A stretch of DNA of 37,636 bases, from positions 1-37,636 of the forward strand of contig JARGFK010000038.1 of assembly GCA_029211065.1 (NCBI GenBank), given 5' to 3'. The position numbers and the translations under genes were made by a program. Below the pieces are notes generated by a model. The model saw nothing but the letters and a program-made list of their open reading frames with translations, was not told the origin of the DNA and did not search any database. This stretch comes from Desulfobacterales bacterium. GTDB taxonomy: Bacteria > Desulfobacterota > Desulfobacteria > Desulfobacterales > JARGFK01. This document shows, in pieces, positions 1,410 through 9,836 of the stretch. Every line of letters starts with the position of its first letter. Within the stretch, counting starts at the first letter, position 1.

Positions 1410-4385
1410 TTAACCGGCCTTCTGTTTAAGACTGCCGCGAATCAGGTTCTGTGCATCCCAGGGATCGGCAATCTCGATAAAATCCCAACGGCCGAAGCCG
1501 CCGTGGTTGTTTACGGCCGGAATCCAGAGGGCGCGGGCCGTGGTGACTTTGGCTGCCTTGTCTTTTTTGGCTTCGCCGGTGACCTCGATGATGAGGTTCA
1601 GCAAATCGCCGTCGCCTCTGCCGTCGTCAAGGCAGGCAATAAAATCCGGGTTGTAATTCTTTTCTTTGCCGTTAAATATGTAAGGAATGGTAAACCCGAG
1701 ATGGTAGTTTTTGACATACCGGCGCACCTCGTTCATATCCTCTAATGCCTGAGCCATTTTCTGCTCCCAGGAGTCGGTATCGGCCACAACATGCGACACC
1801 TGGCATTTATCTTCTTTTGTGGCATAGACCGGCCGGATCGTATCAAAATCCACATAGCGGGTAGAACCGAGCGTGTCATAAGGGCGCAGGATCGGCTTTA
1901 AGGCAGGTATGCCGTAGCTCGACTGTACAATGGCCTTGTAGATCCGGTCTGCGGCAGCATGGGCAAAATCGATCAGCAGAAGGAGCTGCGGAAAGGTATG
2001 GTCTTTGAGCGTTACACACTGAGCCAGCCAGCGTTTGGCAATCGCCAAAAGCTGCGGAAAAAGCCAGGGCTTGTCGTTGCCGTCGTCATCGCGAAAGTAC
2101 TGCTCCAGGGTAAGTTTGGCGAGCAGAAAGGCGATTTCGTTGGACCGGCGGCGTTTAAGATCCTCCAAGCGATGTTTCTCTGTGGCACCGACAATCGGGG
2201 ACATTTCAGTTTCGGTAGGAACGTCGGCGGTGGAAAGCGAAAGCCTGGAGTCTTCGCCAAAGGTTGCGATGAGCTTTTCACCGGGCACATCGTAGCGGTA
2301 GCCTTGCAGGCGAGGGAAGGTGATTTCGCAAGAAAGCCGGTTTTCCAGGGCGCGCACGCGGGTCGGCACGGGCCCGGGTTTCGGTTCTTTGGTGGATCCG
2401 CTGCAGGGGATGAAAGAAAACGGTACACCGTAAACCTCGGCATACTCGGGCGGATATAGATCCAGGTCCGGCGGGTAGGACATGCGCCGCAGAGCCCGGC
2501 CGACCACCTGCTCGCACAGAAGCTGGGTGCCGAAGGCGCGCACACCCAGGACATGGGTAACGGTGTTGGCATCCCAACCTTCCGTCAGCATGGAAACGCT
2601 GACAACGCATTTGACGTGCTCGCCCAGCTTGCCGGATTTGCCGACCGTGTTCATCACCTCACGAAGCAGATCTTCATCCGTGAGATCTTCCGCATCCCGG
2701 CCGGGAAAGCGCAGGCGGTATTCATCCTTAAATTCCTCTATTTCGCGGGCGGCTATTTTTTTAAATTCGGCGCTCATGGACTCCCCCGATTCAAGCTGCC
2801 AGCTGTCCACCAGAATCGTGTTGGGACGTTTCAGCCAGCCGCCCCGGCTGTCGTCGTTGCCAAAGATAGGGAGCTGGCCGGACTGGACAACCGTGGCTTC
2901 GCCAATCGGTTTTTCCCATCCGGCAATATAGTCGAAAACAAGCTTCGAGACATTGGTATTGTTGCAGACTACGATAAAGACCGGCGGGGTAAGGCCCTTG
3001 GCCCTGGCCTCATCGTTTTTCTCCCACAGACGGTAATATTTCTCGTAATTGCTGTAGAGGCTGTGCAAAGCGCCCTGAAGCTCGGCCGGCAGCTTGGGTT
3101 CACCACTGACCGCCTGGGTTCTGCGCCCTTTTTTGGGGAGCTCCTCGCGGATGCGCAGCCAGAGATCACGATAGGTGGGCTGCTCGCCGGTCATGGAATC
3201 GTCGGCAACCGGCACGCGCGGAACCTTGACAATGCCGGCCTCAATGGAGTCGATCAGCGAAAAGTCGGAAACGACCCAGGGAAAGAGGATGCCTTCCGGG
3301 TAGCCGGAGCCGCGCAGAAAAAACGGCGTGGCCGAAAGATCATAGATGACTTTCACGCCGATCTTGGCCTTGACCGCCTCAATGCCGGAAATCCAGACCC
3401 GGGCCTCTTCCTCGCGCTGTTTGGCTTCAATCCGGTCATCACCGGTAAGTTTAACGTCGTCGCCGTCCGGCTTGCGCCGGTAGCAGTGGTGGGCCTCGTC
3501 ATTGATAATGACAATGTTTTTCTTGCTCCCAAGCTCGCGGCAGACGCGGCGCACCATCTGAGCGGGCGTTTCGGTGAATGCACTGGTATCACCCCTGGCA
3601 AGGATGGTTTTGGTGAGCTTGCCGGCGGCAACCTTTTCCCGCTGTTGGAAAGCATGGAAGTTGGTGATGAGGATCTTGGCCCGGTCAAGTAGTTTGAGCT
3701 GGTCAGCCGGGAGGACGTCGCGCTGGCGGTAATAGTTCTGCGGGTCGTTGGGGAAGAGGACGCGCAAACGGTCCCGGATCGTGATGCCGGGGGCAATCAG
3801 TAAAAACGTATCGGAAAAGCGCGCCGCCTGGGGGTCGGCCAGCTTGTTGAGCGCCTGCCAGGCGATCAGCATGGCCATGACCACGGTTTTGCCGGAGCCG
3901 GTCGCCATTTTAAAGGCTGTGCGCGGCAGGCCCGGATTGGAGGTGTCGTTGGCAGCCCGAAGATCATTTTCGATCCAGGCATCGCCGAATTTGCGGGCCA
4001 CCTCGGTAATATAGATTGCGGTTTCAAGGGCTTCTATCTGGCAGAAAAAGAGCTTTTTCTCGCGGTCGGGATCGGTCCAGTACTTAAGCAGCCGGGTCGT
4101 GGTGGGCGTAACCCCGAGATAACCGCCTTTGCGCCACAGGCTGACGCGGCGCCGGACTTCGTTGACGAATTTATTTTCTTCGATGCGGTCCTGGGTCCAC
4201 TCGGTTTCGAAAAGGGCGCGCTGTTTTCCTTTTTTCTTGGGGCGGGCGATGGGCACGAAATAGGAGCTGATCCTGCGGCCGTCCTCAATTTCATTGGTGA
4301 TGCCTTCGTCGGTGAAGCGAAAATGGCGGGTGGGCTCGCGAAAGGGCGAATTTAAAACCGGGTTTTCGATGACGACCTGTTTCAT
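1410..4385 (-). CDS. Type III-like restriction endonuclease subunit (Res; helicase-nuclease)
   Basis: A 991-residue ATP-dependent restriction subunit. In order: an N-terminal domain of ~150 residues; superfamily 2 helicase core with Walker A ATGSGKT (161-167), DEAH box (296-299), SATPF motif III (351-355), and motif VI QVVGRALRR (626-634); then a C-terminal nuclease-like domain with NPDF (~912-915) and IIEVTGE (~932-938) in the place of a PD-(D/E)xK site. The last part is close to restriction proteins that pair with DPPY methyltransferases. The usual catalytic lysine after the glutamate is not obvious (EVT rather than ExK), though I believe relatives share this. Res precedes the antitoxin and mod on the same strand, 89 bases upstream of the antitoxin ATG. 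The reading frame is intact. The ribosome site before the ATG is poor. Confidence 0.9.
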   Translation of the reverse strand: MKQVVIENPVLNSPFREPTRHFRFTDEGITNEIEDGRRISSYFVPIARPKKKGKQRALFETEWTQDRIEENKFVNEVRRRVSLWRKGGYLGVTPTTTRLLKYWTDPDREKKLFFCQIEALETAIYITEVARKFGDAWIENDLRAANDTSNPGLPRTAFKMATGSGKTVVMAMLIAWQALNKLADPQAARFSDTFLLIAPGITIRDRLRVLFPNDPQNYYRQRDVLPADQLKLLDRAKILITNFHAFQQREKVAAGKLTKTILARGDTSAFTETPAQMVRRVCRELGSKKNIVIINDEAHHCYRRKPDGDDVKLTGDDRIEAKQREEEARVWISGIEAVKAKIGVKVIYDLSATPFFLRGSGYPEGILFPWVVSDFSLIDSIEAGIVKVPRVPVADDSMTGEQPTYRDLWLRIREELPKKGRRTQAVSGEPKLPAELQGALHSLYSNYEKYYRLWEKNDEARAKGLTPPVFIVVCNNTNVSKLVFDYIAGWEKPIGEATVVQSGQLPIFGNDDSRGGWLKRPNTILVDSWQLESGESMSAEFKKIAAREIEEFKDEYRLRFPGRDAEDLTDEDLLREVMNTVGKSGKLGEHVKCVVSVSMLTEGWDANTVTHVLGVRAFGTQLLCEQVVGRALRRMSYPPDLDLYPPEYAEVYGVPFSFIPCSGSTKEPKPGPVPTRVRALENRLSCEITFPRLQGYRYDVPGEKLIATFGEDSRLSLSTADVPTETEMSPIVGATEKHRLEDLKRRRSNEIAFLLAKLTLEQYFRDDDGNDKPWLFPQLLAIAKRWLAQCVTLKDHTFPQLLLLIDFAHAAADRIYKAIVQSSYGIPALKPILRPYDTLGSTRYVDFDTIRPVYATKEDKCQVSHVVADTDSWEQKMAQALEDMNEVRRYVKNYHLGFTIPYIFNGKEKNYNPDFIACLDDGRGDGDLLNLIIEVTGEAKKDKAAKVTTARALWIPAVNNHGGFGRWDFIEIADPWDAQNLIRGSLKQKAG

Positions 4386-4846: not shown

Positions 4847-5284
4847 TTAATTGCGGGGGCGTTTCTTTTTTGATCTGATTATTCCATAACCGGCTTTTTT
4901 TTCGGCAACCATTAGCCGTTTTGGACAGCTTCCGCGCTGAATTTGAACATGGATCGTCGCCCCAAGAACCTCCGACACACGTCGCAACATGCTCAGGGAA
5001 TGCCCTTCATATGAGGGTGATTCCAGTCGACTGATCTGCTGTTGAGACGTTCCCGCTAGATTTGCCAGCTCTTTTTGAGACAACCCGCATTCCTCTCTTA
5101 AAGCAGCGAGTTGCAAGGCAATATCCCAGGCTTTACCAGCCTTTTTAAAGCGCTCCACGAAATCCGGATCTTTCAACTGTTCTTCAAGATATGCGTTAAA
5201 ATCGATTTCCTTCAAATCGTTGAGAAACTCCTGCATGGGGGATCGTCCTGAAATTGTTTTGTAAAATTCTATCGCAAATTCCAT
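4847..5284 (-). CDS. HigA-type antitoxin fused to the N-terminus of its HigB toxin
   Basis: A 145-residue reading frame with two parts. Residues 1-24 (MEFAIEFYKTISGRSPMQEF and on) match the start of HigB/Gp49-type RelE-family toxins. From about residue 27 it turns into a HigA antitoxin: DFNAYLEEQLKDPDF is the usual N-terminal arm and ~60-115 is a Cro/C1-type helix-turn-helix with GLSQKELANLAGTSQQQISRLE. A basic tail (KKKRPRN) follows. In the normal operon these are two genes, toxin first. Here the middle and end of the toxin are gone and the join is in frame, so the antitoxin uses the toxin start codon. Toxin activity is not expected. It may survive as a DNA-binding regulator. Confidence 0.7.
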   Translation of the reverse strand: MEFAIEFYKTISGRSPMQEFLNDLKEIDFNAYLEEQLKDPDFVERFKKAGKAWDIALQLAALREECGLSQKELANLAGTSQQQISRLESPSYEGHSLSMLRRVSEVLGATIHVQIQRGSCPKRLMVAEKKAGYGIIRSKKKRPRN

Positions 5285-5378: not shown

Positions 5379-6107
5379 TTATTTTTTACTTTGCAAGTTA
5401 TCGATCGCCTCTTCCACAACCCCTCGCAGCTCCTCGGTTAATTCCGCTGACCGATAGGCTTCCAGACGGGAAAACCATCCCGCATCCCCCGTTAACCCGA
5501 ATAGATAGAGCATGTCTCCCCTGACACTCTCGTCCACGGCATCCAGTTTTTGCCAGATGGGGTCAAGGGCCGTTCGGGCCAGCGCCGGGCTGCGCTCGGC
5601 GATATCTTCGAACACGACCATGGCCCCCAAACGCGTCTGGAAATCAGGATGCATCAGCGTTTCCAGGAATCCGGGAAAAATATTGAACAGCGGCAGCGGC
5701 ATAATGCGCGTGACCACATCCCGGCAGTGGGGGCAGTAGTTGGTCAGGTAGATTTTTATGCGTGACGGCAACTGGACAGCCTTGAGGGAAGCGGTGTCGA
5801 ATTCCGGCAGCTCACCGGAATCCTGAGCGATCATGGCCGCAAGTTCAAAAAAAGGTTTAAGTTCTGCACCCGCCGGCACCAGGTGATAGCGCCATGCGTT
5901 TCCCGGCAACAAGGCGGGGATTTCCGTCCCCTCCCCGTTCTCCGTAATGAATCCAACTTTTGACGCAAGCTGCGACAGCATTCCGCCGAATTTTTCAAAC
6001 AGCCCGGTTCTTTCATCGGCTATCTGGTACAGCCGAATGGATATGGGTTTCGACAAGCGTCTATTCCATTCACGGATAAAGTCGACCTGGCCTGAAGTTA
6101 AATCCAT
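5379..6107 (-). CDS. Thioredoxin-fold protein with CPHC site and HEAT-like C-terminus
   Basis: 242 residues. The first ~135 resemble the tandem thioredoxin folds of AhpF N-terminal or glutaredoxin-like (PDO) proteins: a first half without cysteines containing an AWRYHLVPAGAELKPFFELA segment, then a second half starting IKIYLTNYCPHC with the redox pair at C125/C128. Instead of completing the second fold, the protein continues into helical repeats (about 140-240; PDFQTRLGAMVVFEDIAERS, ...VRGDMLYLFGLTGD) that look like HEAT repeats. No signal peptide, so cytoplasmic. It is divergent from the radical SAM operon with 144 bases between, and may supply thiol redox to it (inference). No close named family is known to me. 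Confidence 0.65.
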   Translation of the reverse strand: MDLTSGQVDFIREWNRRLSKPISIRLYQIADERTGLFEKFGGMLSQLASKVGFITENGEGTEIPALLPGNAWRYHLVPAGAELKPFFELAAMIAQDSGELPEFDTASLKAVQLPSRIKIYLTNYCPHCRDVVTRIMPLPLFNIFPGFLETLMHPDFQTRLGAMVVFEDIAERSPALARTALDPIWQKLDAVDESVRGDMLYLFGLTGDAGWFSRLEAYRSAELTEELRGVVEEAIDNLQSKK

Positions 6108-6124
6108 CCCATTTAATCCTTAAA

Positions 6125-6153
6125 TTGACAACGAACAACGGTGACGTTAATAT
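6125..6153 (+). promoter_or_regulatory. Near-consensus sigma-70 promoter of the GNAT-TraB/radical SAM operon
   Basis: TTGACA (6125-6130), a 17-base spacer and TAATAT (6148-6153) give an almost perfect housekeeping promoter. Transcription would begin near 6160, leaving a leader of about 90 bases before the TTG start at 6252. It lies within the divergent gap to the thioredoxin-HEAT gene, so one regulator could act on both. Confidence 0.65.
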
Positions 6154-6239
6154 TCGAAATAAATAGCGGCTTTTTGAAATTTTATCCAGTTAATATTGAA
6201 CAGTCCGGCGGTTGAAACGCTGCATTATTAAAAACCATC

Positions 6240-6244
6240 GGGAG
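6240..6244 (+). promoter_or_regulatory. Ribosome site that fixes a TTG start
   Basis: GGGAG lies 7 bases before TTG at 6252. The ATG at 6247 between them is out of frame (ATG ATT TGA). The next in-frame ATG is at 6318 and has no comparable site, so the TTG is preferred. Confidence 0.5.
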
Positions 6245-6251
6245 TTATGAT

Positions 6252-7943
6252 TTGAACCCCCCGGAATTGCATACAATCCTGGAAAATGCCTCTATCCCCG
6301 AACATTCCGCTCAATTTATGAGCGCCATGTCAGGGGGTGAGCCGTTTTTGGAGGGCCCCTATCTTTTCATTGCCGCCGAAGATTGGCTCCTGGCGGTGGG
6401 TTACCCCCTCGATGGCGAATACCGGGCCGAAGAATTTGGTGCAGCCCTGTCCCGGGCCCTGCAACGCACCCGGGCGCGCGACTGCTGGGCCATCTCTCCG
6501 GACCTGCCCGGGAATTTAAAACCCCACTGCTGCGACCGGGACCGGTATTACATTCTGAATGCCGACGCTACGGTGTCTCCCCGGCTGGATCGTCTTTCCC
6601 AACGGGCAGCCGCCTTGCTGCAAGTGGAAGAAGGCGCTGTTTTTACCCCGGCGCACCGGCGTCTGTGGGCTGAATTCGTGGGTCGTAAAGGATTGCCGCC
6701 AACCGTACGGGAACTGTTCGCCCGAACCGAGACGGTTTTAAAGTACGCTCCCGGCCTGTCGCTCTTAAATGCCTGGGATGGCGACGGCAACCTGGCGGCC
6801 AGCCTGCTTTTGGATTCGGCGCCGCACCGTTTCTGCTCCTATCTCATCGGCGCCCACTCCCGCACCCACCATACCCCGTATGCTTCCGATCTGCTCTTTC
6901 GTGAAATGATTCGCCGGGCCGCTGAAAGCGGAAAAACCTACCTGCATCTGGGTTTGGGCGTCAATGCGGGAATCCGCCGTTTCAAGACAAAGTGGGGTGC
7001 AGCACCCGGCCCGGCATATGAAATGGCGCAGTGGCAGGAAAACGGTACAGAACGGGCAGGCGCCGGGTTGCTCATGGACATGCTGGCAGCCCTGCCCCGG
7101 GAACCCGTGTCCAAGGAACAGTTTATGGCAAGCCTGCCGAAGCAGCGGCGCTTTAACATGCTCTGGGAAATCGAAAAAAACGGACGCACGTCATGGATCG
7201 GCGGCACCGCTCATTTTTTCTGTTACAGCTTTGAGTTTTCCCTGCGGAAACTCTTTGAAAAAGTCGACACGGTCTTGTTCGAAGGGCCGCTGGATTCGAC
7301 CAGCCTGGAACAGGTATCCGAAACCGGCCGCCATCCCGATCCGGAAAGTCCCCGGCTCATGGACGCACTGACCGAAGCCGAAGTCCGTAGTCTGGAAAGG
7401 GTCGTCTGCGGCCCCCGGGGTTTCTGGGCCGCTCTCATAGGCACCCGCATGCCGGACCCGCCCGATGTAAGCTATTTCTTGTCCCGGACCCGTCACTGGA
7501 CGGCTTTTTTCTCGCTTTGGTCCGAATTTCTCAAACGACAGGGCTGGACGCAGTCCGTCGATCTGGAAGCCTGGCATCTGGGCCATGACATGGGAAAATC
7601 GGTTGTCGCCATGGAGACCATCCCGGAACAGATCCAGACCCTGGAAAGCATCAGCATTGAGCGAATCGTCAATTTCTTTCGCCAATCTCACCTTTGGCAA
7701 GGGTATATCAAGCGCTATGTGCGCGCCTATCTCAAGGGGGATGTGGATAATCTGTATGGGACCAGCGCTGAATTTCCCACCCGCTCCGAGTTCGTCATCC
7801 ACCGCCGCGACGCCGTCTTTCTGGAACGCATGGGCCCCCACCTGGAAGAAGGGCGCTGTGCGGTGTTTGTGGGATCGGCGCACATGATCAACCTGCGCCG
7901 GATGCTGGTCGAAGCCGGGTTCATGGTCCGGAGGGGCCGATGA
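6252..7943 (+). CDS. GNAT-like acyltransferase fused to a TraB/GumN-family domain
   Basis: 563 residues in two parts. Residues 1-260 form a GNAT-superfamily domain of the CelD/BioF2-like (Acetyltransf_6) kind, ending in LHLGLGVNAGIRRFKTKWG (231-249), the typical G-x-G...K-x-x-WG end of that family. Residues ~300-563 are a TraB/GumN (PF01963-like) domain: it starts MLWEIEKNGRTSWIGGTAH, with a first GxxH at 318-321, an acidic FEGPLD at 343-348, and a second GxxH in VFVGSAHMINLRRML (541-544). TraB/TIKI relatives are thought to be metal-dependent hydrolases or proteases. No signal peptide or membrane anchor is seen, though many relatives are exported. First gene of a three-gene operon; its stop overlaps the next start (ATGA). 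The combination is unfamiliar to me, and the substrate is unknown. Confidence 0.7.
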   Translation: MNPPELHTILENASIPEHSAQFMSAMSGGEPFLEGPYLFIAAEDWLLAVGYPLDGEYRAEEFGAALSRALQRTRARDCWAISPDLPGNLKPHCCDRDRYYILNADATVSPRLDRLSQRAAALLQVEEGAVFTPAHRRLWAEFVGRKGLPPTVRELFARTETVLKYAPGLSLLNAWDGDGNLAASLLLDSAPHRFCSYLIGAHSRTHHTPYASDLLFREMIRRAAESGKTYLHLGLGVNAGIRRFKTKWGAAPGPAYEMAQWQENGTERAGAGLLMDMLAALPREPVSKEQFMASLPKQRRFNMLWEIEKNGRTSWIGGTAHFFCYSFEFSLRKLFEKVDTVLFEGPLDSTSLEQVSETGRHPDPESPRLMDALTEAEVRSLERVVCGPRGFWAALIGTRMPDPPDVSYFLSRTRHWTAFFSLWSEFLKRQGWTQSVDLEAWHLGHDMGKSVVAMETIPEQIQTLESISIERIVNFFRQSHLWQGYIKRYVRAYLKGDVDNLYGTSAEFPTRSEFVIHRRDAVFLERMGPHLEEGRCAVFVGSAHMINLRRMLVEAGFMVRRGR

Positions 7944-8767
7944 TCGGGCCCGACCGGCTGGACCGGGTCAGCGCCGGCGCCGTGGTTCCCGAACAGGTCA
8001 TTTCCTACGTGCGTTCTGTGGCAGGGTCGCGACCCCGCCTGTTCGGCGCTTGCGTGGGCTATGAGACGGAAGGACAACTCGTTCTCATCGGATACCCGCT
8101 GCACGATCCCGTGGATAGCAACGCCATGTCCCATGCCGTGGATCAGGCGTTGAAGATCCCCGGGTTGCAGAAGATCACCGTCATCAGCCCTACCCGGCCG
8201 CCCCAGGCCCCCGGGAAAATCCGATCCGGCCGGGACGACTACTTTGTATTGCCGGTACCGGCGCCGCCGCCCGCAGCGAAACTGAGAAATCTGTTGCGCC
8301 GGGCGGACCGCGAGCTGACCATCGAACACGGCCGGCAGCTTGAACACGACCACCAGGCCCTGGTGGATCGCTTTTTGTCACAGCGAACACTGGCAGCCGG
8401 CACACGCCGGATTTTCAGGCAAATCCCCCGCTACCTCCAGGCGTCTCCCGGCAGTATGCTTGTCTCCGCCCGGACCGCCGGGGGGCGGCTGGCCGCGTTT
8501 GCCGTGGGAGAATACGCGTCGCTGCATACCGCTTTGTTCATGTTCTGCTTCCGGGATCCATCCCTGGCGCCGCCGGGCAGTTCCGACCGGGTCTTTTCCG
8601 GTCTAATGGACGAAGCGGCCCGGCGCGGACATACCCGTATGAATTTGGGCCTGGGGGTCAACGCGGGTATCCGTTTTTTCAAACGCAAATGGGGCGCTCA
8701 GCCATTTCTGCCCTGCATCCAAACCGAGTGGGAGATAAAACCGGCGGACCCGGTGTCACGGCTGTAA
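7940..8767 (+). CDS. GNAT-like acyltransferase, paralogue of the preceding N-terminal domain
   Basis: 275 residues that align end to end with residues ~30-265 of the upstream fusion: GYPL near residue 51 in both, a D-x-YY/YF-x-L step near 100, and the same end motif MNLGLGVNAGIRFFKRKWG (234-252; the fusion has LHLGLGVNAGIRRFKTKWG). It lacks the TraB part. The start overlaps the previous stop by four bases and has GGAGG upstream, so translation is probably coupled. A duplicated acyltransferase pair next to a radical SAM protein suggests two related transfer steps or a heterodimer (inference). The acyl donor and acceptor cannot be told from sequence. Confidence 0.65.
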   Translation: MIGPDRLDRVSAGAVVPEQVISYVRSVAGSRPRLFGACVGYETEGQLVLIGYPLHDPVDSNAMSHAVDQALKIPGLQKITVISPTRPPQAPGKIRSGRDDYFVLPVPAPPPAAKLRNLLRRADRELTIEHGRQLEHDHQALVDRFLSQRTLAAGTRRIFRQIPRYLQASPGSMLVSARTAGGRLAAFAVGEYASLHTALFMFCFRDPSLAPPGSSDRVFSGLMDEAARRGHTRMNLGLGVNAGIRFFKRKWGAQPFLPCIQTEWEIKPADPVSRL

Positions 8768-8773
8768 AATTTT

Positions 8774-8779
8774 GGGAGG
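8774..8779 (+). promoter_or_regulatory. Ribosome site that fixes the radical SAM start
   Basis: GGGAGG lies 10 bases before the ATG at 8790. A TTG at 8772 is in frame but overlaps this site, so the longer version (6 extra residues) is rejected. Confidence 0.55.
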
Positions 8780-8789
8780 CACTGAACAC

Positions 8790-9836
8790 ATGAATTTAAA
8801 TAAGCTCACACCGGCAAATCGTAAATTCCGGGGTCCCGGCTTCTGGGAAACCTTCAAAGAGACATTTCTAGGCGTCCGCCGACCCCTGGACTGCCTTCAG
8901 GTGGAAGTTACTTCCCGCTGCCCGGGCCGCTGCACCTATTGCCCCCGAACGGTTTTACAGGAAAACTGGCTGGGTCGCGACATGGCGGGAGACACCTTTG
9001 TCCGGCTGTGGCCCCTGATGCGGCGGGCAGGCCGGGTTCATCTCCAGGGTTGGGGGGAGCCGCTCCTAAACCCGTTCTTTTTTGAAATGGTCGCCCTGGC
9101 CCGCAAGGCCGGCTGCAGTGTTTCCACCACCACCGGCGGTCTGCTCATGACGCCGGACCTGGCGCTCCGGATCGTTGACAGCGGGATAGACATCGTGGCG
9201 TTTTCTCTGGCCGGTACGGATTCCACCGGCAACGCCCCCCGCCACGGCATGGATTTCGGCCAGGTGTGTGCCGCGATATCGACGTTGCAGATGGTCCGGG
9301 AAAAACGGCAGGGCGTCCACCTGGAAATCCATATTGCCTATCTCCTGCTGGCATCCAACCTGGACAACGTACGCGGACTCCCCGACCTGATGAAACGGCT
9401 GGGGGTGCACGCCGTCGTCATCAGCACGCTGGACTTCCTTCCGGACCCACAATTGACCGGGGAAGCTTTCTCACTTCAGGATCCCCATAAACTTGCCCGT
9501 GCTGCCGTCGTCCTGGAAGAGACCGCCATCCGGGCACGGGAACTGGATTTAGGGTTTCACTTCGAACTTCCCGATCCAGACGCCCCCGGCAACAACTGCC
9601 GCGAAAACATCCAGCGCTCCCTGTTTGTCTCGGCCGACGGCGCGGTGTCTCCCTGCGTTTATGTGAATGTGCCCATGAGCTGCCAGGATCCCAACCGCCG
9701 GGTTTTCGGGAATGTCCGCGAGCAGGACCCCATGGAAATATGGGACAGTGAAGCGTTTCGCAGCTTCCGCGACAGCCTCGCCCAGGGGAATCCTAACACG
9801 CCCTGCCGGTCCTGCCCGAAACGGATGATGAAGTAA
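8790..9836 (+). CDS. Radical SAM protein with SPASM-like cysteine-rich C-terminus
   Basis: 348 residues. The AdoMet-cluster motif is CPGRCTYC (C44, C48, C51), followed by a WGEP segment (a GGEP-type AdoMet-binding strand) near residue 90. The C-terminal ~80 residues carry NNCRENIQ, SADGAVSPC, a GNV turn, an MEIWDSEAFRSFR helix and a final CRSCPKR, the layout of SPASM/twitch domains that hold auxiliary 4Fe-4S clusters in peptide- and substrate-modifying enzymes. Third gene of the operon, 22 bases after the GNAT paralogue. No precursor-peptide gene is obvious nearby, so a small-molecule or protein substrate is as likely as a RiPP. Also compatible with MoaA/AlbA-like roles; the exact subfamily is not recognised. 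Confidence 0.8.
   Translation: MNLNKLTPANRKFRGPGFWETFKETFLGVRRPLDCLQVEVTSRCPGRCTYCPRTVLQENWLGRDMAGDTFVRLWPLMRRAGRVHLQGWGEPLLNPFFFEMVALARKAGCSVSTTTGGLLMTPDLALRIVDSGIDIVAFSLAGTDSTGNAPRHGMDFGQVCAAISTLQMVREKRQGVHLEIHIAYLLLASNLDNVRGLPDLMKRLGVHAVVISTLDFLPDPQLTGEAFSLQDPHKLARAAVVLEETAIRARELDLGFHFELPDPDAPGNNCRENIQRSLFVSADGAVSPCVYVNVPMSCQDPNRRVFGNVREQDPMEIWDSEAFRSFRDSLAQGNPNTPCRSCPKRMMK

Follow-up and report, generated by a model that had tools for sequence, protein, structure and literature searches.

A conserved module of tandem-GNAT proteins, a TraB-type hydrolase domain and a radical SAM enzyme in Thermodesulfobacteriota that mostly carry a dissimilatory sulfite reductase

The contig JARGFK010000038.1 of a Desulfobacterales bacterium (contig C38 of a 4.94-Mb draft genome; its whole stretch of 37,636 nucleotides is called the window here) contains three closely packed plus-strand genes. 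They encode a tandem GNAT (GNAT1) fused to a TraB/TIKI-type hydrolase domain (a protein hereafter called FUS), a second tandem GNAT (GNAT2), and a radical S-adenosylmethionine enzyme (radical SAM, or rSAM). Do these genes belong together and, if so, what could such an unusual set of enzymes do? We show here that their grouping is not due to chance, since it recurs. The three genes are a conserved four-part module (i.e., GNAT1, TraB, GNAT2, and rSAM) of a patchy set of Thermodesulfobacteriota, mostly with a dissimilatory sulfite reductase (Dsr), and this module probably marks an undescribed biochemical pathway tied to sulfur respiration.

The locus and its recurrence

The features of the locus are the following, the gene that lies outside the module being given last:

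6125..6153, plus strand: sigma-70-like promoter upstream of FUS (TTGACA-17-TAATAT; a consensus match alone, 10 of 12 positions)
6252..7943, plus strand: FUS, GNAT1 (tandem GNAT) fused to a TraB/TIKI-type hydrolase domain, TTG start
about 6252-7070, plus strand: GNAT1 part of FUS, tandem GNAT
7125-7940, plus strand: TraB part of FUS, TraB/TIKI-type hydrolase domain
7940..8767, plus strand: GNAT2, second tandem-GNAT aminoacyl-transferase-like protein (from Pfam and homology to the N-terminal part of FUS)
8790..9836, plus strand: rSAM, radical SAM/SPASM (Twitch-like) enzyme (CX3CX2C and four C-terminal cysteines)
5379..6107, minus strand: thioredoxin-HEAT gene, outside the module (242 aa, has CPHC, internally deleted)

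An earlier note on this DNA, made from its letters alone, had described a tight coupling of the three plus-strand genes, a near-consensus promoter, two related acyltransferase-like domains, a hydrolase-like TraB domain, a radical SAM enzyme with extra cysteines, and a divergent redox-type gene with CPHC on the opposite strand. All of these are borne out. FUS starts at TTG 6252, with GGGAG upstream at 6240. Its last 4 bases (7940-7943) are shared with GNAT2, an overlap that is identical in loci L040-L047. For the rSAM, the most probable start is ATG 8790, 22 bases past the GNAT2 stop, TTG 8772 being an in-frame alternative. The promoter search of the gap upstream of FUS returned two overlapping matches, against a mean of 0.7 in shuffled sequences. 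In Pfam, FUS matches TraB with 102.2 bits (cut-off 26.8) and Acetyltransf_6 with 26.5 (cut-off 22); GNAT2 matches Acetyltransf_6 with 24.3; and the rSAM matches Radical_SAM (PF04055) with 50.0 (cut-off 29.5) and SPASM with 54.2 (cut-off 21.5). GNAT2 is a homologue of the N-terminal part of FUS (29% identity, E 2e-29).

The module was then found in other genomes by two surveys. That of the class is biased by its query, the fusion itself, and gave relatives of FUS in 13 of 241 genomes; that of the phylum used the GNAT alignment alone and gave homologues in 30 of 395 genomes (23 genera). A contig scan with GNAT2 alone gave three close relatives, in two Desulfobacterales metagenome-assembled genomes (MAGs) and one deltaproteobacterial MAG. 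Wide regions around the matches were fetched and all their reading frames searched with models of the parts, for 44 carriers in total (42 genomes under handles and 2 named MAGs). The parts mostly stand in the order GNAT1, TraB, GNAT2, rSAM, on a single strand and with short gaps; this order is contiguous at 22 loci, in seven families and the two named MAGs. In 41 of the 44 carriers TraB comes directly after a GNAT, in 34 an rSAM lies on the same strand no more than 2.5 kb after a GNAT, and 32 have both linkages, sometimes at two loci per genome. These three counts include the broken copies of G291, where GNAT1, a portion of TraB and the C-terminal portion of the rSAM share a single frame, and of G030, where GNAT1-TraB is frameshifted. 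As a background, Radical_SAM has 57 matches in the window's own 4.94-Mb genome, i.e., one per 87 kb. The GNAT-rSAM linkage is missing from ten carriers: G198, G376, G410 and G386, where a contig end explains the missing rSAM; G451, where the rSAM is convergent; and G066, G266, G477, G332 and G260, to which we return below. Moreover, the GNAT1-TraB unit and the second GNAT unit stand at separate places in six genomes (G144, G077, G075, G198, G266 and G412).

The check suggested in the earlier note was whether the four genes go together, in the same order, in unrelated lineages. This holds for FUS, GNAT2 and the rSAM, which recur together within one phylum, and it fails for the thioredoxin-HEAT gene, which is widespread and unlinked. 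Indeed, the latter was rejected as a module member: its model matched none of the 51 other loci scanned, and relatives are present in 150 of the 241 class genomes. The window copy itself lacks about 83 residues shortly after CPHC in comparison with six longer relatives of this protein of about 330 aa, so that most of the CPHC-bearing fold is gone while the frame is still open.

The four parts also appear to have evolved together. Over the 22 loci that have all of them in order (one of which, L042, has a cut rSAM), their pairwise distances are correlated, with a Mantel r of 0.92-0.95 and none of 2000 permutations as high, a correlation of which shared genome descent alone would also yield some part. 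A tree was built from the 79 GNAT domains that cover 200 or more model positions (fragments from L051-type or contig-end loci, e.g., L058, L105, L107, L108 and L120, being excluded). In it, the domains immediately preceding TraB group in one clade (41 rows, with a support of 100/100), and GNAT2 splits into three groups. A third GNAT type (L052, L053, L055-L057, L091, L095 and L099) forms one clade, also with 100/100, and accompanies another rSAM type or a gene of the family NF038143. GNAT1-TraB is a single frame in 18 of the 43 TraB rows, and at L099 (9840-11948) a GNAT and an rSAM are fused in one open frame of 702 codons. Since the fused GNAT1-TraB type is present both within the order of the window (families f1, f14, f17) and in other groups of the phylum (f71, f96, f128, f139), a transfer of the module as a unit is suggested. 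Beyond the phylum, searches comprised plasmids, where a tblastn with FUS gave no match, viral contigs, where the GNAT alignment gave 46 pattern matches and no relative, and the GNAT2-only contig scan, other phyla being hardly covered.

Some copies depart from this organization. At L103 (5443-7429), GNAT1, the beginning of TraB and the end of the rSAM make up one frame, which looks as though it had lost GNAT2 and the cysteine motif of the rSAM. Split or frameshifted copies are seen for GNAT1-TraB in L052 (6086-7838), for TraB in L051 (6256-7316), and for GNAT2 in L105 (6591-7354), and are due either to decay or to assembly errors. At loci of the third GNAT type, a short-chain dehydrogenase is fused to the rSAM (L055 6910-8796, from Pfam; L056 6268-8154, from length and homology).

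Folds and conserved residues of the module enzymes

What are the two GNATs likely to transfer? In the predicted model of FUS (pLDDT 80, pTM 0.48), residues 1-267 match FemX, FemA, MprF/PG-synthases, Sbb17/Sba18 (which are aminoacyl-tRNA-dependent peptide synthases) and the uncharacterised protein 2hqy at Z 16.5-19.5 in the VIA comparison, the next tandem GNAT after this Fem/MprF-type group reaching Z 14.7; the top Foldseek rows agree. This fold evidence concerns the GNAT1 domain of FUS, to which GNAT2 is linked by homology. The P-loop pattern that binds coenzyme A (CoA) was searched between beta4 and alpha3, a stretch of 30 residues in module GNATs, and is present in one of 78 of them (i.e., absent at its usual place in 77), versus 10 of 13 Acetyltransf_1 matches of the window's own genome, in which the whole matched stretch was searched (mean 98 aa); by eye, nine of these ten controls have it at the usual place, and the control L143 has it solely far from there. 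Furthermore, an F-K-x-K-W motif is invariant in the C-terminal GNAT of all 78 module GNATs of the motif alignment (78 of the 79 domains of the tree). The review PMC12945691 points to Lys305 as a key residue in FemX and, in DhpH-C, to an essential Lys329 and a contributing Phe328. From these elements, we infer that GNAT1 and GNAT2 use amino acids borne by tRNAs. Because the GNAT profile has no sequence match among solved structures at E<=1, this proposal rests on the fold, the missing P-loop, and one motif. In single-sequence searches of solved structures at the same threshold, FUS had no match and GNAT2 had two, and the MprF C-terminal family PF09924 (cut-off 27.5) gave no match for FUS or for the GNAT1 of L098.

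On the other hand, the GNATs could be CoA-dependent acyltransferases acting on a lipid, a sugar or an amine, with TraB as an esterase, the whole tailoring an envelope or storage molecule. Both GNATs are above the Acetyltransf_6 cut-off, their general fold is common to tandem CoA-dependent GNATs (Z up to the 14.7 given above), and the P-loop pattern occurs anywhere in the C-terminal GNAT (mean 142 aa) of 12 of the 78, or anywhere in the module GNAT of 17. However, at its usual place the pattern is found in a single module GNAT versus nine or ten of the 13 controls, and the structural ranking favours tRNA-dependent enzymes, so that we regard CoA-dependent acyl transfer as improbable.

A clue to the amino acid used was sought in a cysteinyl-tRNA synthetase gene found immediately before GNAT1-TraB in a single genome (L050 7216-8838). 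It was dropped: that genome has a second strong cysS match besides this one, and in other carriers no listed strong match adjoins a module.

The TraB domain has the catalytic pattern of its superfamily (two GxxH, a Glu, and two Arg), which is invariant in 39 of 39 rows, and Pfam TraB (PF01963) is above its cut-off also in L048, L098 and L110. TIKI hydrolases cleave esters and proteins (from a portion of PMC6254334). Its predicted model (pLDDT 91) has no Foldseek match at E<=0.001. In VIA its matches include a Tetrahymena complex IV subunit (Z 10.5), ChaN (6.3), HopBA1 (5.2) and BcR135 (5.0-5.2), with EreC also in the list and unrelated rows at similar Z (e.g., phosphoglycerate mutase, 6.2), and we claim no fold from it. 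The TraB profile gave two chance matches among solved structures at E<=1.

Concerning the rSAM, CX3CX2C is present in 22 of 22 module enzymes, and four C-terminal cysteines (C276, C295, C345 and C348, numbered from TTG 8772) are invariant in 12 aligned rows, C276 and C295 being kept in 21 of the 22 enzymes of the larger set, which includes one truncated rSAM. A full SPASM domain holds two auxiliary clusters and seven cysteines. Because the window enzyme has four C-terminal cysteines instead of seven, we describe it as Twitch-like. Its best NCBIfam matches are below cut-off (TIGR04317, 120.7 bits for a cut-off of 380; TIGR04311, 125 for 400).

The link with sulfite and the proposed function

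Which function could bring these enzymes together? Among the 42 carriers under handles, dsrA is above cut-off in 38; of the others, G467 has two sub-cut-off pieces, G221 has pieces, G332 has a weak match (in an 80% complete genome), and G386 has none. The sulfite-resistance protein YeiH (PF03601) is also present in 38 of 42. Both were compared in a sample of 118 genomes, taken as part of the 395 phylum genomes (the listed handles fall in the same range), with Fisher tests that ignore shared ancestry. In this sample, dsrA is present in 9 of 10 carriers versus 49 of 108 others (p 0.008), and YeiH in 10 of 10 carriers versus 33 of 108 others (p 2e-5), the YeiH matches of two of these ten carriers, G291 and G332, being of a weaker, partial type. 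Among the dsrA genomes of the sample, YeiH is found in 9 of 9 carriers versus 27 of 49 others (p 0.01), and among the YeiH genomes, dsrA is found in 9 of 10 carriers versus 27 of 33 others (p 1). Since YeiH marks the carriers among dsrA genomes and dsrA does not among YeiH genomes, YeiH is statistically the better partner, and dsr may come along with YeiH. The YeiH gene lies within the fetched regions of 11 of the 44 genomes, in eight families. In Salmonella, the deletion of yeiH causes sensitivity to sulfite, according to a part of PMC12880088. The family NF038143 is likewise enriched, with 7 of 30 carriers versus 8 of 365 other genomes (p 3e-5).

In four genomes, the nearest module gene lies 3.5-8 kb from dsrA (G319 and G547 of family f64, G412 and G362 of f109). 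The module neighbours in G319 are YeiH, a split-Soret-cytochrome-like gene, dsrA, dsrB, a cobB-type (dsrN-like) gene, dsrC, and a dsrK-like gene; in G412, iscU-like, iscS-like, dsrA, dsrB, cobB-type and dsrK-like genes come after GNAT2-rSAM-YeiH; and G547 and G362 have part of such a neighbourhood, some of these genes being named by homology, without a model scan. The window's own genome also carries a second module (L054, contig C76, 568-6834), with YeiH, two NF038143 genes, FUS and an rSAM, and without GNAT2. At L146 and L148-L151, YeiH and NF038143 lie 0.15-8 kb apart without GNAT, TraB or rSAM matches, and look like a unit of their own.

We propose that the module combines tRNA-fed aminoacyl transfer, a radical step and a hydrolytic release, in the service of sulfite respiration or tolerance. 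GNAT1 and GNAT2 would be Fem/MprF-type transferases fed by charged tRNAs, whose amino acids they would attach to an acceptor in two steps, through amide or ester bonds; the added residue or the acceptor would be changed by the Twitch-type rSAM; and the TIKI-type hydrolase would cut an amide or ester, for release, trimming or proofreading of the product. Such an add-modify-release logic is borrowed from 3-thiaglutamate-type pathways and would here use non-homologous ligases. The product, or the modified target, would serve sulfite respiration or sulfite tolerance, and YeiH may export this product or may just handle sulfite in the same cells. The earlier note had already offered a modification pathway (a radical step, two transfers and a hydrolase) as one reading: the folds and the conserved residues fit it, and the steps themselves we infer. 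We hold the proposal tentatively and give it somewhat less than an even chance. Its more specific form, an aminoacyl-tRNA-dependent pathway of sulfate and sulfite reducers that builds and releases a small amino-acid-derived cofactor, carrier or protectant, itself acting in dissimilatory sulfite metabolism alongside YeiH and NF038143, is possible and rather doubtful.

Several observations weigh against this proposal. As regards the module as a unit, the five carriers named above (G066, G266, G477, G332 and G260) have no rSAM in the fetched region and no contig end to explain it. As regards tRNA use, besides the lack of a sequence match to solved structures and the P-loop patterns found elsewhere in the C-terminal GNAT, GNAT2 stays below the PF09924 cut-off with 25.3 bits (a GNAT of L110 reaches 29.6), and the Phe-Lys of the module falls, by the VIA ranges, close to where FemX or DhpH-C would have it, without a residue-by-residue alignment. 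As regards sulfite, the tests leave ancestry aside, 49 of the 58 dsrA genomes of the sample have no module, no more than 5 of the 17 genomes in family f64 show a match, dsrA and YeiH depend on each other (of the 43 sample genomes with YeiH, 36 also have dsrA, in line with the p of 1 given above), which slightly lowers our confidence, and the dsrA of the window's own genome is on another contig. Lastly, neither a precursor peptide in the 1.2-kb flanks of the TraB-bearing loci nor a specific constant partner among the recurring neighbours was recognised.

Part of the same evidence can be read differently, i.e., the module could mature the sulfite-reduction apparatus in place (DsrAB, DsrC, the sirohaem cofactor or the NF038143 protein), with TraB as an editor. 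The frequency of dsrA in carriers, the enrichment of NF038143, and the dsr neighbourhoods of G319 (module beside dsrAB, cobB-type, dsrC and dsrK-like genes) and of G412 (GNAT2-rSAM beside iscU-like, iscS-like, dsrAB and cobB-type genes) are in favour of such a role, as are the scores of the rSAM, below cut-off, with haem-modifying and PqqE-type enzymes. However, Dsr works without the module, because those 49 of 58 dsrA genomes have none; module and dsrA are mostly far apart or on different contigs; and NF038143 is missing from 23 of 30 carriers. We consider this maturation role unlikely.

Radical SAM/SPASM maturases act on peptides, and the module could also be a pathway for a ribosomally synthesized and post-translationally modified peptide (RiPP), in which the rSAM would modify the precursor, the GNATs would cap it, and TraB would remove its leader. 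TIKI proteases do act on peptides or proteins (in the portion of PMC6254334 cited above). The earlier note had seen no precursor peptide, and none emerged here either, in searches that a distant or unconserved one may have escaped. In the flanks, the sole short-ORF (open reading frame) cluster that spans three families (f64, f76 and f81) is, by eye, the C-terminal tail of the rSAM, three further clusters of 2-3 members each spanning two families. The neighbour clusters found in four or more families, labelled by eye, are ABC ATPases, sensor kinases and a pseudouridine-synthase-like protein; others in at least four families, labelled in the same way, are flavin or iron-sulfur oxidoreductases and likely shadow frames of these. 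With NCBIfam peptide-maturase matches far below cut-off and no other specific recurring neighbour, a RiPP pathway is very improbable. A defence or conflict system built on a viperin-like radical enzyme and GNATs, evoked by the patchy distribution and a weak match between the rSAM and pVip in PADLOC (E 3.2e-9), is hardly credible, as this match is far weaker than those to TIGR04311 (E 4e-36) and TIGR04317 (E 7.5e-35), the NCBIfam viperin model NF038283 gives 27.5 bits for a cut-off of 180, and FUS and GNAT2 have no PADLOC match.

Other genes were noticed around the module. An Rnf operon is near it in families f14, f32 and f34. In the window, a gene for a helix-turn-helix protein (by Pfam) lies at 4847-5284; its N-terminal residues are reminiscent of the beginning of a RelE-type toxin, as if a toxin fragment had been fused to its antitoxin. 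A 991-aa gene at 1410-4385 has a weak PADLOC match to a type III restriction enzyme (28.8 bits).

Comparison with known systems

The earlier note knew of no described pathway with this composition, and we found none in curated families or among the papers listed by our literature searches. The GNATs match broad Pfam superfamily models only, and no NCBIfam model reaches its cut-off for the window GNATs or rSAM. A literature search over titles and abstract starts, with few subscription journals, gave, among the papers listed, no description of a GNAT-TraB-rSAM set and, by title and abstract start, nothing on NF038143; by term search, "YeiH", "exporter" and "acetyltransferase" are absent from the main text of a 2023 review of dsrAB diversity. 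Sulfate and sulfite reduction is among the oldest and most studied respirations, and the module points to enzymes, not described so far as a set, that go with it in numerous families. It supplies functional neighbours for two poorly understood proteins, YeiH and NF038143. If the tRNA-fed reading is true, charged tRNAs and radical chemistry would be linked to sulfur respiration, and a new cofactor or modification may follow. The small size of the module, three proteins (four enzyme parts), leaves the claim open to a direct test by expression and assay.

The proposed logic has precedents, and none was found for the composition or for the sulfite link. The dsr gene cluster adjoins module genes in two genomes each of f64 and f109, but the module genes match no dsr family, and 49 of the 108 non-carriers of the sample have dsrA. 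The tungsten-oxidoreductase maturases (TIGR04317) and rSAM_Geo_metal (TIGR04311) are the top two matches for all 7 module rSAMs examined, but with scores of 89-166 bits against cut-offs of 380-400, and no oxidoreductase partner appears among the recurring neighbours, where no dedicated search for one was made. With the TraB/PrgY/GumN proteins (TIKI superfamily), the module shares a Pfam TraB match above cut-off and the invariant GxxH, Glu, GxxH and two Arg, but its TraB is fused to, or stands beside, a tandem GNAT. With the aminoacyl-tRNA transferases of the FemABX/MprF type, it shares the double GNAT fold (at the Z of 16.5-19.5 obtained for GNAT1) and the absence of a CoA P-loop at the usual place in nearly all members, and its invariant Phe-Lys in the C-terminal GNAT may correspond to their key residues; unlike them, its GNATs have no sequence match to solved members and are two paralogues side by side, one of them fused to TraB, with an rSAM in addition. 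Finally, in 3-thiaglutamate synthesis, an amino acid is added from a tRNA, modified, and released by proteolysis, as a part of PMC9016710 describes. The proposed add-modify-release logic of the module would be that of this peptide aminoacyl-tRNA ligase (PEARL) pathway, but Pfam finds no LanB-like ligase among the window proteins, no scaffold peptide was found in the 1.2-kb flanks or among recurring neighbours, and the module has a radical SAM enzyme in place of the non-haem iron enzyme.

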